Shown here in pieces: positions 29,527 to 34,866 of a DNA stretch of 50,452 bases. The notes below the pieces were generated by a model. The model had not been told where the DNA came from. It did no database searches and was given only the letters and a program-made list of their open reading frames with translations. This stretch comes from Candidatus Kryptoniota bacterium (GTDB lineage Bacteria; Bacteroidota; Ignavibacteria; Kryptoniales; JAKASW01), in contig JAHECO010000029.1 in assembly GCA_024641705.1 (NCBI GenBank), positions 1 to 50,452 on the forward strand. Direction: 5' to 3'. The translations under genes were made by a program, and so were the position numbers. The first letter of the stretch is position 1, and the number at the start of each line of letters is the position of its first letter.

Positions 29527-30681
29527 CTACTTTGGCGCGGCTGCTAGTTCAAGTACCTTCTCATGCATCCGGTCCAGATCTAGCATCGAAATGCATTCGA
29601 GGTTATGTGGACAAGATCTCTTCCAGCAAGGGGAACAGAATAGTCCTTCAGGTATGAACTTCTCTCCTCTGCCGTAAAGGTCGATTTCTTCCGGACAACT
29701 TACCCCGAACCACACAATTACCTTCTTCTTCAAGCCGATCGCCAGGTGCATCCCGTAGCTGTCGCCTGTAATGATGACGTCTGCTGCATTCTCATAGACA
29801 ATGCCTTTCCTTAGTCCTTCGTCGGAAGGGGTATCGAACAATCTCGTTGTCAGATCCGGTATTCGTTCGATGGCTCTGTTGTACATTTCCCGGTTGCGTT
29901 CCGTGTCTTCGCGCCCTCCGAGCAGCAGCATCCTGATGTCCTTCTCCGCGGAGAACATTTCGATCAGTCTGAGGTGCTGTTCGATGGTCATCTTCTTGTT
30001 CGGGTAGAGGTTGGAACAGCCGGTATTGAAACCGATGACCAAATGCTCATCGGAGATGCCCTTTGATCGGCGGTATGCCTGGGTCAGGGCAGTTTCCTCT
30101 TCGGTCAGGCAGAGGACGTATTCATCCCTTTCGTAGGGAAGCCGGAATGTTTCGGCGAGAATGTCCTGGCCCGTGCGTTTGTTCACCCTAAACTTCAGAT
30201 AATCGTCGATGCCGAGCTTGTAATTGTACACAGCTTCTTTGTTGAGAGGCACGATCTGTCCGTTCGCGTTGAGTCCGAATCCGAGCTTCTCTTCCGCGTC
30301 GAGCTTCATGGTCAGTGCGGCCGATCTTCTCGATTTGTCGGCGTTCAGGACGAGGTCGAACTTCATTTGTTCAAGCACGAGCCAGCTTTCGGCGTCCCAT
30401 GAAAATACATCGTCGATATAGGGATTGTTCGCGAGCAGGGGAGTCGCGGGTTTCAAAGTTATCCATGCGACGTAGCTCTCGGGATACCTCCTCTTCAACC
30501 CCGGCAATTGCGCGGTGGTCATCAGGACATCACCCATGGCGTCCAGGTTGATGATGAGGATCTTCGTACCGAACGGTTTATCCGGACGCGCGCAGCCCTC
30601 ATAACAGGTCTTGTAAGGGAGACACGGCTTGTATCCGCCGAATCTCTTGCATTCGGGAATTTCCAGGTCAAAGACTTTCAT
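29527..30681 (-). CDS. GT9 glycosyltransferase (heptosyltransferase-like) with N-terminal cysteine cluster
   Basis: ADP-heptose:LPS-type transferase of about 384 residues. KILIINLDAMGDVLMTT is the acceptor-side start of the GT9 fold, and DVIITGDSYGMHLAIGLKKKVI is the nucleotide-sugar site. The C-terminus has C-x2-C-x4-C-x5-C, shared with the next gene. Ahead of the fold is an extra cluster C11, C20, C26, C30 in the first 30 residues, unusual for heptosyltransferases. ATG 30681 was chosen; an in-frame ATG at 30708 adds nine residues. It overlaps the upstream GT9 gene by about 14 bases. Confidence 0.85.
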   Translation of the reverse strand: MKVFDLEIPECKRFGGYKPCLPYKTCYEGCARPDKPFGTKILIINLDAMGDVLMTTAQLPGLKRRYPESYVAWITLKPATPLLANNPYIDDVFSWDAESWLVLEQMKFDLVLNADKSRRSAALTMKLDAEEKLGFGLNANGQIVPLNKEAVYNYKLGIDDYLKFRVNKRTGQDILAETFRLPYERDEYVLCLTEEETALTQAYRRSKGISDEHLVIGFNTGCSNLYPNKKMTIEQHLRLIEMFSAEKDIRMLLLGGREDTERNREMYNRAIERIPDLTTRLFDTPSDEGLRKGIVYENAADVIITGDSYGMHLAIGLKKKVIVWFGVSCPEEIDLYGRGEKFIPEGLFCSPCWKRSCPHNLECISMLDLDRMHEKVLELAAAPK

Positions 30682-31753
30682 TTGTTTTGGCGGCTCCTTT
30701 GTCCGCAATCGGTGTCACCGCAGGTTCTGCCTTGTCCAGCATCGAGACCAGATCAAGCAGACTTTGGAAGACGGCCTCGGGTTCAAGTTCGTTCATGCAG
30801 AGATTCCCGATCGGGCATTTTGTCAAGTTGCATTCGAGGCAATCGAGCTTCTCGTTCCGGACGATTACAGACACGTTTCCGAATGGGCCCTGGAGATGCG
30901 GGCTCGTCGGTCCGAAGATGGCGAGGATCGGGACTCCGAGCGCGGCGGCTATATGCATCGGCCCCGAGTCGTTGCTCACAAGGAGACGCGAAGCTTTGAG
31001 GACGGCCCCCATCTGCTTGAGCGATGTATCGGGGGCGAGTATCGCGCCCGAGGAAAGACATATCTGCTCCGCCTCTTTTCTTTCCGACGGGCCGTAGAGA
31101 ACGACGACCTGCTGTCGGAGCTGGGAGGTGATCATCCGTGACAGGCTGATGAACTTCTCAGCGGGCCACCTCTTTATCTGCCATCCTCCTCCGACATTGA
31201 ATGCGATGAAGTTGCCGGGGCGCAAACCGGCAGAAGACATGAACCCCTCCGCGAAAGTCTCCGATTCTCCGTCCAGGAAAAACGACGGAGTGGCGCTGTC
31301 GACAGATATGCCGACGCGCCGCAGGGCGTCAAGGTTGAACTGTACGTTGTGCACGCTGCCACTCCTCGGAGGAACCAGAATGTTGTAGGCGACACGTCTC
31401 CACTTAAACGGGAATCCGACCCTGTATTTCGCCCCGCTGAACAGTGTTATTATCGCCGTTCGCGGATTGGCAAATAGGTCGAAGACCAGGTCATAACGGC
31501 CTCTCCTGGTCCCGGCGATTATGGAGAACGGGGAGTCTGCTTTCGCTTCATACGAGATGATGTTGTTTATATAGGGATTGCCTTCAAGAACCGGGGAAGC
31601 GAATGACTCTACCAGGAAATCGATGCGGGCATCGGGGAACGCCTTCCTCAGATTCGGAAGAACCGCAGTCGAAAGGATGACATCGCCGATTGCGCGAGGT
31701 TTGATTACAAGTATCCTGTTGATCCCGGCTTTGTCCAGAGTGATTTCTTTCAT
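30668..31753 (-). CDS. GT9 glycosyltransferase, ADP-heptose:LPS heptosyltransferase-like
   Basis: Transferase of about 361 residues that probably adds a heptose or related sugar to the LPS core at the inner face of the membrane. RILVIKPRAIGDVILSTAVLPNL opens the fold; FNVGGGWQIKRWPAEKF and SNDSGPMHIAAALGVPILAIFGPT are classic heptosyltransferase motifs. A C-x2-C-x4-C-x5-C group lies in the last part. ATG 31753 begins right before the conserved start; a longer frame from 31816 would run into the divergent porQ leader. Confidence 0.9.
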   Translation of the reverse strand: MKEITLDKAGINRILVIKPRAIGDVILSTAVLPNLRKAFPDARIDFLVESFASPVLEGNPYINNIISYEAKADSPFSIIAGTRRGRYDLVFDLFANPRTAIITLFSGAKYRVGFPFKWRRVAYNILVPPRSGSVHNVQFNLDALRRVGISVDSATPSFFLDGESETFAEGFMSSAGLRPGNFIAFNVGGGWQIKRWPAEKFISLSRMITSQLRQQVVVLYGPSERKEAEQICLSSGAILAPDTSLKQMGAVLKASRLLVSNDSGPMHIAAALGVPILAIFGPTSPHLQGPFGNVSVIVRNEKLDCLECNLTKCPIGNLCMNELEPEAVFQSLLDLVSMLDKAEPAVTPIADKGAAKTNESL

Positions 31754-31823
31754 GAAATTGCTAGAGAATATAAGCAATAAGGGTGGTCTTGAAAAAGTAG
31801 ATTGTCGCCGGTACATTCAAAAA

Positions 31824-32753
31824 ATGAAATCGATATGTTTCGCGGTCATTCTGCTTGTGGCGGGCACCGCAACGGGCCAGAGTGTGTATCAGTTTCTCGA
31901 TCTCGATGCAAGCGCGAGAGAGGCATCGCTTGCCGGCAGTGCCCTGGCACGGACCGACGACCCGAGCGCTTTTTACTATAACCCCGCCCTCACGGTATCA
32001 TCGCAGGACCGGGCCGTGACCTTTGGATATCTCAAGCACATCCTCGACTTCAACGGGGGATATGTCTTCTCGACGTTCCATCTGAAGAAAGAAGGCTACT
32101 TCGGAGTGGGCATCGGTTACCTTAACTATGGCTCATTCGAGAAGACTGATGGGGCGGGTAACCAGTACGGTACCTTCAGTGCAGGCGACGCATTTCTGGC
32201 ACTGAATTACTCGAACTATCTCGCGAAGGATTTCAGCTACGGTGTCAACGTCAAAGGGATATTCTCGTCCATAGATATCTACAGCTCTTCGGCGCTCGCG
32301 CTTGACTTCGGATTGTATTACGATTTCCCGGACAACCTCATGGGAATCGGATTCTCGGTTGTGAACGCTGGCCGGCAGCTGAGCTACTACGACGGCGTAA
32401 GGGAACCTCTCCCCTTCGACGTAAGACTGGGAATCTCGAAACAGCTGGAGCACCTCCCGCTTATCATGAATCTGGCATTTCAAAGGCTGGGAGATCCGGA
32501 GCTCAGCTTTACGGACAAACTCCGGTCTTTCGTCATTGGAGGCGAGTTCCTGCTTTCGGACAATTTCCACGTGCGGATCGGCTACAACAACCTCGGTCAT
32601 CAGCAGATGAAGATCGGTCTGAGTTCGGGAATCGAAGGTCTCTCCTTCGGGATGGGTCTGAAATTCTTCGGGTACGGTTTCGATTACTCTTATTCTTCCT
32701 GGGGACCTAAGATCGGCGGTCTCCACCGTATTAATGTTACGACCTCATTCTGA
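31824..32753 (+). CDS. porQ: PorQ-like outer-membrane protein (type IX secretion family)
   Basis: Secreted beta-barrel protein of 309 residues. A signal peptide (about 1-19, ending ATG-Q) precedes YQFLDLDASAREASLAGSA, the hallmark start of the PorV/PorQ branch of the FadL-like barrels, and YYNPAL in the next turn. The remainder alternates Gly/aromatic strands and ends in a short strand with a terminal Phe. In Porphyromonas PorQ is needed for the type IX secretion system. No other Por gene is present. It starts only 70 bases from the divergent GT9 gene, so they share a control region. Confidence 0.85.
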   Translation: MKSICFAVILLVAGTATGQSVYQFLDLDASAREASLAGSALARTDDPSAFYYNPALTVSSQDRAVTFGYLKHILDFNGGYVFSTFHLKKEGYFGVGIGYLNYGSFEKTDGAGNQYGTFSAGDAFLALNYSNYLAKDFSYGVNVKGIFSSIDIYSSSALALDFGLYYDFPDNLMGIGFSVVNAGRQLSYYDGVREPLPFDVRLGISKQLEHLPLIMNLAFQRLGDPELSFTDKLRSFVIGGEFLLSDNFHVRIGYNNLGHQQMKIGLSSGIEGLSFGMGLKFFGYGFDYSYSSWGPKIGGLHRINVTTSF

Positions 32754-32856
32754 TATAGATTTCATCTCAAGCGATATCGCCTGTTTAGCAAGCGTGATAT
32801 AAATCCGATCGCGGTTTGAGAGACAACATGTTATTGAGGCACAGGAACGGTTGACA

Positions 32857-33927
32857 ATGCGGGAGTCCGACAAGAATCATTTCGTCTTTGTCGTCAACAC
32901 AGGTTCGACGTCGACGAAGTTGGCTTTCTTCTCAAATACAGACGTGGTTTCGTCCGCCGCCATACGGCACAAGCAGGAGGAGCTGGAGAAATTCCACAGC
33001 ATCTGGGAGCAATTTGAGCTCCGTGCAAGTATAGCGTCCAACTGGCTCAGCGAACTCGAGCAGCCCCCTTCGGCGGTTGTCGCTATCGGCGGATTGTTGA
33101 GGCCGGTGGTGGGCGGCACTTACAGGGTGAACGACCGAATGATTGCAGACGCTCGCTCAAATCTGCAGGGTGAACATGTCTCCAACCTGGCTTGCGCCAT
33201 CGCAAAAATGATTGCGGACGAGTACGACTGTCCGGCCTTCACCGTCGACCCGGTGTCTGTGGATGAATTTGAAACACCTGCCAGGTACTCCGGGCATCCG
33301 ATGGTCACTCGCAGGAGCCTTTCGCACGCGTTGAACATTCATGCCGTTACCCGTTTCGCCGCCGCGAAGATCGGGAAGAGTGTTCAGGAGTCAAATTTCG
33401 TGGTTGCTCATCTTGGCGGAGGAATTTCAATTGTGCCCGTGAAGCACGGCAAAATAGTGGATGCAAACGACGCGTCCAGCGATGGACCTTTCTCTCCGGA
33501 AAGAACCGGCGGATTGCCCCTTCAGCAATTTATCGGAGTCTGTTTCTCCGGGGATTTTTCCGAGGAGGAAGTGAGAAAGATGGTAATGGGGAAGGGCGGC
33601 CTTTCCGCGTACCTCGGCACGAATTCGGCGCGTGATATCGAGGATCTCATTAACAAGGGGGATTCGGACGCGCGGGAAGTATATCATGCCATGGCGTATC
33701 AGATCGCTAAGGAGATCGGAGCAATGGCTACCGTGTTGAAAGGGGAAATCGATGGAATTGTGCTGACAGGCGGGTTAGCCTCCTCGAAGATTCTTGTCGG
33801 CTGGATTGATGAGCGAGTCAAGTTCATGGCGCCTGTCTATGTCTTCCCGGGTGAGGATGAGATGAAAAGCCTTGCACTCGGAGCTCTGCGGGTCCTTCGC
33901 GGAGAGGAAGAAGCGCTGGAGTACTGA
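32857..33927 (+). CDS. buk: Butyrate kinase
   Basis: Acetokinase-family enzyme of about 356 residues that makes ATP and butyrate (or a branched-chain acid) from the acyl phosphate. FVVNTGSTSTKLAFF is the first phosphate motif; GHPMVTRRSLSHALN and VAHLGGGISIVPVKHG in the middle and DGIVLTGGLA near the end are butyrate kinase motifs. ATG 32857 was chosen over a TTG at 32851 because AGGAACGG lies at a suitable distance. Paired with phosphotransbutyrylase, it gives substrate-level ATP from butyryl-CoA or from branched-chain amino acid acyl-CoAs. Confidence 0.93.
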   Translation: MRESDKNHFVFVVNTGSTSTKLAFFSNTDVVSSAAIRHKQEELEKFHSIWEQFELRASIASNWLSELEQPPSAVVAIGGLLRPVVGGTYRVNDRMIADARSNLQGEHVSNLACAIAKMIADEYDCPAFTVDPVSVDEFETPARYSGHPMVTRRSLSHALNIHAVTRFAAAKIGKSVQESNFVVAHLGGGISIVPVKHGKIVDANDASSDGPFSPERTGGLPLQQFIGVCFSGDFSEEEVRKMVMGKGGLSAYLGTNSARDIEDLINKGDSDAREVYHAMAYQIAKEIGAMATVLKGEIDGIVLTGGLASSKILVGWIDERVKFMAPVYVFPGEDEMKSLALGALRVLRGEEEALEY

Positions 33928-34866
33928 ATGGGAAGAGTTCCTGTATTGAATTTCGACAACCTTCTTGAAACTGCCGTAGGCCTGCCACCCAAGACGGTTG
34001 CAGTCGTTTATCCGAACAACTCCGAGACATTTTCGGCGATCGCCGAGGCATGTTCGGTGATGAAGACCAAATTCGTGCTCTTCGGCGACCAGACCATTGT
34101 GGACGAGCGGCTCAGGACTTTTCCTGAAGATTCGCTGTCGAGGATCAGAGTTGTCGGCGTCGACGATGTCAGCTATGCCCTCAGAAAGGCAATCGAATCG
34201 GTGAGGGATGGGGAGGCAGACATTTTATTGAAAGGCGGCATCGATACTTCTACTATGATGAAGGGCGTGCTTGCCGATCAGAGTGGTCTGAAGACCGGAC
34301 GCCTTCTTACGGATATCTTCGTCCTCGAGTATCCAACCCGGCAGGAGAACCAATTCATCATGATAACTGACGGCGGCATGACGCTCGCGCCGGACCTGAA
34401 GAACAAGGTGGAGCTGATAAACAACGCTGCGGAAGTCGCTCATGCGCTCGGAAATCCCAATCCACGTGTTGCTATCCTTTCAGCCACAGAATTTGTCATG
34501 CCTAACCTGCAGTCCACAATAGACGCCGCTGCACTGTCCAAGATGAACGAAAGAGGGCAAATAAGAGGATGCGTCGTGGACGGGCCTCTTGCCCTGGACA
34601 ACGCGCTCTCGATGGAGGCTGCCGAGGAGAAGGGAATCAAGTCTCCCGTCGCCGGGAGGGCGGAAATACTTGTGGCTGCAAATATCGAATCCGCGAACAG
34701 CCTCGCCAAGAGCACGACGTACTTCGCGAACCTCAGGCTCGCTCATGTGATCGTCGGCGCAAAGGTGCCGATACTGATCCCGTCACGTGCCGACAGGATG
34801 GAGGCAAAGCTGCTCTCCATCGCTCTGGCCAGTATCGTCATCGAGGCGGCATCGGATGGCCGGTAG
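33928..34866 (+). CDS. ptb: Phosphate butyryltransferase (phosphotransbutyrylase)
   Basis: Enzyme of 312 residues that exchanges CoA for phosphate on butyryl-CoA, feeding the kinase encoded just upstream. DILLKGGIDTSTMMKGVL and MITDGGMTLAPDLKNKVELI are the recognisable phosphotransacylase motifs, and CVVDGPLALDNALS lies in the C-terminal half. The ATG immediately follows the buk stop. The order buk then ptb is reversed relative to the familiar clostridial operon. Confidence 0.93.
   Translation: MGRVPVLNFDNLLETAVGLPPKTVAVVYPNNSETFSAIAEACSVMKTKFVLFGDQTIVDERLRTFPEDSLSRIRVVGVDDVSYALRKAIESVRDGEADILLKGGIDTSTMMKGVLADQSGLKTGRLLTDIFVLEYPTRQENQFIMITDGGMTLAPDLKNKVELINNAAEVAHALGNPNPRVAILSATEFVMPNLQSTIDAAALSKMNERGQIRGCVVDGPLALDNALSMEAAEEKGIKSPVAGRAEILVAANIESANSLAKSTTYFANLRLAHVIVGAKVPILIPSRADRMEAKLLSIALASIVIEAASDGR

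Follow-up and report, generated by a model that had tools for sequence, protein, structure and literature searches.

The question raised by this locus is what eight cysteines, gathered in two clusters of four near the two ends of a glycosyltransferase of family 9 (GT9), are doing there. The protein, P0001 (Table 1), is encoded on the window, by which we mean the whole stretch of 50,452 nt of Candidatus Kryptoniota bacterium DNA that was analyzed, and a preliminary description had supposed a metal or Fe-S site in a family not known to need one. The N-terminal cluster, said there to precede a normal GT9 fold, occurs in P0001 with exactly the spacing given, the translation of the ORF beginning MKVFDLEIPEC11...C20...C26...C30, and the protein is modeled with a GT-B fold. 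The C-terminal cluster of P0001 is CSPCWKRSCPHNLEC, and the same pattern, which had been claimed for both GT9 proteins of the locus, is indeed read in the second one, P0002, as CLECNLTKCPIGNLC, the N-terminal cluster being absent from P0002. Because no methionine occurs between M1 and M49, which lies inside the fold, because a possible Shine-Dalgarno sequence precedes the ATG, and because the relatives of P0001 carry the same C-x8-C module at their start, the annotated start is secure and does not lie downstream of C30.

P0002 scored 114.5 bits against Glyco_transf_9 (PF01075; cut-off 22); its open frame is shown from 31780, and the first ATG of the ORF is at 31816. Of the 80 related loci, 64 also have a GT9 ORF just upstream on the same strand, and among the other 16, 12 had room for one and showed a different gene.

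Table 1. Coordinates of the features discussed, in positions of the window.
Feature	Position	Strand	Basis or remark
P0001, GT9-fold glycosyltransferase of the eight-cysteine branch	29527..30681	-	384 aa; Pfam, AlphaFold2, fold alignment
N-terminal cluster of P0001, C11-x8-C20-x5-C26-x3-C30, with G-x-x-P-C turn (G16, P19)	30592..30651	-	sequence, alignments, module search
C-terminal cluster of P0001, C349-x2-C352-x4-C357-x5-C363	29593..29637	-	sequence, alignments
Possible Shine-Dalgarno sequence AAAGGAG	30694..30700	-	by eye; 12 nt before ATG at 30681
P0002, second GT9, directly upstream of P0001	30668..31780	-	14 nt overlap; C-terminal cluster only
C-terminal cluster of P0002, C-x2-C-x4-C-x5-C	30797..30841	-	sequence

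P0001 itself scored 45.8 bits against PF01075 (cut-off 22). Its AlphaFold2 model, built with 80 aligned sequences (P0001 and 79 of the 80 related loci, L090 being left out), had a pLDDT of 91.5, with blocks of 67-81 in the first 40 residues and of about 77-88 in the C349-C363 loop, and its first strand comprises residues 39-44. When the N-terminal 45 residues were folded alone the pLDDT was 58 (blocks 54-63); this part is thus modeled better in the whole protein than by itself, as expected if it is packed on the enzyme. Fold alignment of the model gave Z 31.9 with 3tov_B, 28.2 with WaaF (1psw), 26.2 with WaaC (2h1h_A), and 20.7 with TibC (4rap). The GT9 heptosyltransferases WaaC, WaaF, and Veillonella 3tov share the whole GT-B fold with P0001 (Z 25.8-31.9 over 288-321 residues), and their Gly-Asp motif and H312 region are kept in it, while the listed GT9 structures align only from P0001 residue 35-39 onward and have no counterpart to the N-terminal module. 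Chains of the plant NDH-PSI supercomplex (9grx_1, 7wff_a, and 7f9o_6) also align with the model at Z 21-22, above general GT-B enzymes, and would represent a glycosyltransferase-like plastid subunit.

The cysteine pattern was sought in GT9 homologs and is conserved, and the observation holds more strongly than the preliminary description claimed. Among 96 distinct ortholog ORFs from loci L001-L118 (at least 380 bits, identical ORFs counted once), C11, C20, C26, C349, C352, C357, and C363 are each cysteine in 95, and the fourth N-terminal cysteine occupies column 30 in 13 and the position after it in 83. The misses are L090, which has an assembly gap at the N-terminal cysteines, and L036, which ends at about residue 207 of the query at a contig edge. 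Two further cysteines, absent from the preliminary description, are conserved in the orthologs, C222 (95/96) and C329 (88/96). In 22 diverse members, down to 23% identity, C11, C20, C26, C30, C349, C357, and C363 are invariant columns together with G16 and P19, and the eighth cysteine shifts by one residue in the types with a CxC end. Neither His nor Asp ever replaces Cys at the fully aligned cysteine columns of 142 rows from the branch, an alignment in which C11, G16, P19, and C20 are kept by construction, its rows having been trimmed at a C-x4-G-x2-P-C match that no ORF failed. Nothing corresponding to the N-terminal module was found in Pfam, NCBIfam, or the literature searched, and the eight-cysteine GT9 is a real, conserved variant that is undescribed within these sources.

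Related proteins with 48-76% identity to P0001 were found at 80 loci, the best 80 of 92 confirmed in a scan of genome contigs. The window's genome encodes a second such protein (L119, on contig C18), which with its relatives has the spacing C-x8-C-x9-C-x2-C and mostly a CxC-type end. A profile of the 37 module positions alone matched 92 of 395 Bacteroidota genomes, namely 79 of the 98 in the window's class and 13 of the 297 outside it, two of the latter weakly, and the reading frames matched are mostly 355-440 aa long, the size of a GT9 protein. Both clusters are also present on one Flammeovirga plasmid and two Streptomyces plasmids; the two Streptomyces plasmids represent Actinomycetota, the only other named phylum met in the analysis, whose genome survey covered Bacteroidota. 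The module was seen only on GT9 proteins, since all 163 module ORFs of the loci collected match a GT9 profile that itself includes the module, and a core-only GT9 profile from which the cysteine clusters were excluded also matches 142 distinct module rows. With P0001 as query the viral scan gave no relative, phage records searched by tblastn gave no match, and plasmids searched at the DNA level gave nothing similar; PHROGs has no family for the P0001, L175, or L176 proteins. With profile A2 the viral scan returned three loci, L175 and L176 with both clusters and L177 with the C-terminal cluster only.

The C-terminal cluster by itself is ordinary in GT9. After 5 ORFs had been removed for their length, the set examined contained 252 GT9 ORFs that scored 60 bits or more and measured 300-520 aa. 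Both clusters are present in 138 of them, the N-terminal module without the full C-terminal pattern in 2, and the C-terminal pattern by itself in 66, one of which is L090 with its N-terminal assembly gap; the remaining 46 show neither cluster. The C-terminal pattern is therefore present in 138 of 140 module carriers vs. 66 of 112 ORFs without the module (Fisher p 5e-17, ignoring relatedness). As for the two exceptions, L154 has all four cysteines with a longer last loop, and L167 is without the fourth C-terminal cysteine only. The spacings of the two clusters are also coupled: of the 43 classified rows with a long-spaced N-terminal module, 36 have a CxC end, and all 96 rows with a short-spaced one have CxxC.

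In a tree of the core columns, from which the cysteine clusters were left out (95 rows left of 265 after reduction at 60% identity; quick search, rooted at the midpoint), the rows with the N-terminal module form one branch of 30 rows plus L177, with an SH-aLRT support of 99. The module label changes twice on this tree and the C-terminal pattern six times, which makes the C-terminal cluster the older or the more freely gained one, and most simply the N-terminal module would have been gained once by a line that already had the C-terminal cluster. L177 (2382-3248), the GT9 of a viral contig lying inside the branch, keeps the C-terminal cluster, and the module is absent in the three frames read; it is either a loss or a misplaced long branch.

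Among the matches listed in a literature search for metal, Fe-S, or cysteines in GT9, only the paper on TibC dealt with GT9 metal sites. TibC holds Fe(III) by Cys339, Cys342, Cys358, and Cys370 in an "iron finger" of the C-lobe, as judged from an anomalous signal and, in a companion paper, ICP-MS; the site is mononuclear (1Fe-0S) and about 20 angstrom from the cleft, and loss of any one of the four cysteines abolishes color, dodecamer, and activity (PMC4358343). In the back-to-back contact one protomer's iron finger meets the N-terminal barrel of its partner, and GT-B glycosyltransferases are described as metal-independent for catalysis (PMC4358343). Because TibC holds ferric iron in a Cys4 site, the phrase "not known to need one" was only partly right, and many GT9 proteins have a C-terminal cluster (66 of 112 ORFs without the module); the other part of the supposition stands, in that two near-invariant clusters point to a bound metal in what looks like a cytoplasmic enzyme.

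TibC, a bacterial autotransporter heptosyltransferase (BAHT) with distant similarity to P0001, has the GT-B heptosyltransferase fold in common with it, and in both the four cysteines open with CxxC and lie in the C-lobe near the C-terminal helix (PMC4358343). The spacing differs, being x2-x15-x11 in TibC by its published residue numbers and x2-x4-x5 in P0001, and so does the N-terminus, which is a 97-residue beta-barrel in TibC and a 38-residue cysteine module, with no barrel in the model, in P0001 (PMC4358343). A PDB profile search with P0001 gave no sequence match to TibC. On account of the spacing and the missing barrel we do not file P0001 as a BAHT; in a Pfam scan of ten neighbors, no autotransporter gene was found next to it. 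The end of the P0001 model aligns to TibC residue 394, which puts C363 21 and TibC C370 24 residues from the aligned end. Judging from these range ends of the fold alignment, the C-terminal cluster probably lies at about the place of the iron finger, a likeness of position in the fold and no proof of homology. The zinc knuckle, C-x2-C-x4-H-x4-C, has nearly the ligand spacing of the C-terminal cluster, which however has four cysteines, no histidine, and a place within an enzyme, so that the likeness is one of spacing only.

Building on the observed conservation, co-occurrence, single branch, fold, and neighbors, we lean slightly toward the prediction that P0001 is a transferase of the nucleotide-heptose type from a GT9 branch with two separate Cys4 sites, in which zinc or iron would have a structural role. 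The C-terminal site would close a short loop leading from the last C-lobe strand to the C-terminal helix, at about the iron finger's place, and the N-terminal site would make a compact strap, packed on the catalytic domain, out of the 38 residues ahead of the first strand; each would hold one metal ion on four cysteines. Both would fix the ends of the enzyme, a dimer contact, or the acceptor-binding face, while sugar transfer would proceed by the usual metal-free GT-B mechanism from a nucleotide-heptose-type donor. The metal, its mononuclear type, the structural role, and the donor are predictions here: the analogy to TibC argues for a metal at the C-terminal site, and the co-occurrence together with the better modeling in context argues for one at the N-terminal site. 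Either zinc or iron would suit the predicted sites, and the compact spacing and near-absolute cysteines would also suit [4Fe-4S].

It is accordingly worth weighing a reading in which an iron-sulfur cluster, [4Fe-4S] or [2Fe-2S], is bound at one of the cysteine clusters or at both, where it would play a structural part or would sense oxygen or iron and thereby switch the synthesis of surface sugars. Each cluster offers four near-invariant cysteines with little substitution by His or Asp, and the compact C-x2-C-x4-C-x5-C is spaced much like the tight Fe-S loop in endonuclease III, while the branch has plasmid members from Streptomyces and Flammeovirga, which are aerobic, and the neighborhoods read show no conspicuous gene for Fe-S assembly or redox chemistry. 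TibC can be cited on both sides, as iron is the only metal known in a similar fold but its site is mononuclear (PMC4358343), and we judge an iron-sulfur cluster to be rather unlikely.

The coupling between the two clusters raises another alternative, namely that the eight cysteines form one joint site, or two touching ones, that clamps the N-terminal strap to the C-terminal loop, either within one chain or between dimer partners. Every protein found with the N-terminal module has three or more of the C-terminal cysteines, the spacings vary together as described, and the iron finger of TibC touches the N-terminal barrel of its partner (PMC4358343). The C-terminal cluster, however, is widespread without the module and evidently can exist by itself, the coupled spacings run along subfamily lines and may reflect common descent, and L177 sits in the branch without the module; we consider a joint site quite unlikely. 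Disulfides, or catalytic or redox thiols, would account for the cysteines without any metal. However, P0001 has no apparent signal peptide or membrane stretch (the Kyte-Doolittle score of a 19-residue span peaks at -0.06 within the first 40 residues) and GT9 enzymes operate in the reducing cytoplasm, so that a non-metal role seems very unlikely, and two structural metal sites are the reading we favor.

D51 of P0001 is the Asp of the Gly-Asp motif, at the position of the base in WaaC and TibC; in WaaC this is Asp13. The D51 column of the 142 branch rows holds Asp in 98, Asn in 32, Ala in 8, Thr in 3, and Ser in 1, and the 44 non-Asp rows, among them L046, L066, L089, L104, and L111, all belong to the P0001-like short-spaced group. 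The near-invariant cysteines are thus under stricter conservation than a residue with a presumed catalytic role. In TibC the corresponding Asp-110 is the likely base and is required for activity (PMC4358343), and the part of the branch in which D51 is replaced may use another base or have an altered activity. The D307 column is Val in 38 of the 142 rows, 37 of them with a CxC-type end and one, L167, without the full C-terminal pattern; all 38 (L119 and other CxC types) have a long-spaced or unclassified N-terminal module and an intact D51, and a change of donor is possible in them.

P0001 falls far below the cut-offs of the models for LPS heptosyltransferases I, II, and III (TIGR02193, 50.7/185.3 bits; TIGR02195, 52.9/134.6; TIGR02201, 40.1/170.2), and its exact substrate therefore cannot be named from them. 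The Streptomyces members adjoin a carbamoyltransferase, an NAD-dependent sugar enzyme, and a single gene that fuses GmhA-, HldE-kinase-, and HldE-adenylyltransferase-like domains (domain scan on L140) and is annotated rfaE2 at both L140 and L141; these neighbors may resemble the bleomycin sugar genes BlmC/D/E/G, a likeness on which the literature search gave no paper. At L176, an IMG/VR contig, an HldE-kinase-like gene, an epimerase, and a carbamoyltransferase surround the eight-cysteine GT9. In the window's own genome, an HldE adenylyltransferase domain exceeds its cut-off, and GmhA-like proteins score 200.6 and 192.8 bits, just under theirs of 209.45. With heptose-synthesis genes both beside relatives and in its own genome, a nucleotide-heptose is our best guess for the donor of P0001.

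These neighborhoods also hold some details of their own. The L140 and L141 clusters, on plasmids pFRL3 and pFRL5, are alike, with radical SAM, P450, and SHMT genes, the eight-cysteine GT9, the carbamoyltransferase, the GmhA-HldE-like fusion, and the NAD-dependent enzyme, and look like clusters for a sugar-bearing natural product. L175 and L176, on IMG/VR contigs listed as viral, both combine sugar-synthesis genes, including epimerases, with the eight-cysteine GT9, and L175 has a PEP mutase. At L119 and L139 a second glycosyltransferase gene lies directly downstream.

A wider proposal, which we hold to be doubtful, is that the N-terminal module defines an undescribed, multi-phylum GT9 subfamily in which two metal sites, perhaps Fe-S, tie the glycosylation of surfaces or natural products to iron, zinc, or redox state; as these sites are conserved more strictly than the Asp presumed to be catalytic, they would serve in the working enzyme beyond scaffolding. 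If the metal reading is true, metal sites have been built onto the GT-B fold in lineages far from TibC. The branch, currently annotated just as "glycosyltransferase family 9 protein," would then offer an easy biochemical handle (color, ICP-MS), and some of its members may, as a warning, have another residue in place of the catalytic Asp.

On the opposite strand of the window, 31578-32753 (+) encodes the type IX secretion protein PorQ (NF033711, 240.7 bits, cut-off 220); since the listed ORF runs from a TTG into the P0002 region, its true start is probably further in. At 32851-34866 (+), a butyrate kinase gene (over cut-off) precedes a phosphate-butyryltransferase-like gene (below the equivalog cut-off).
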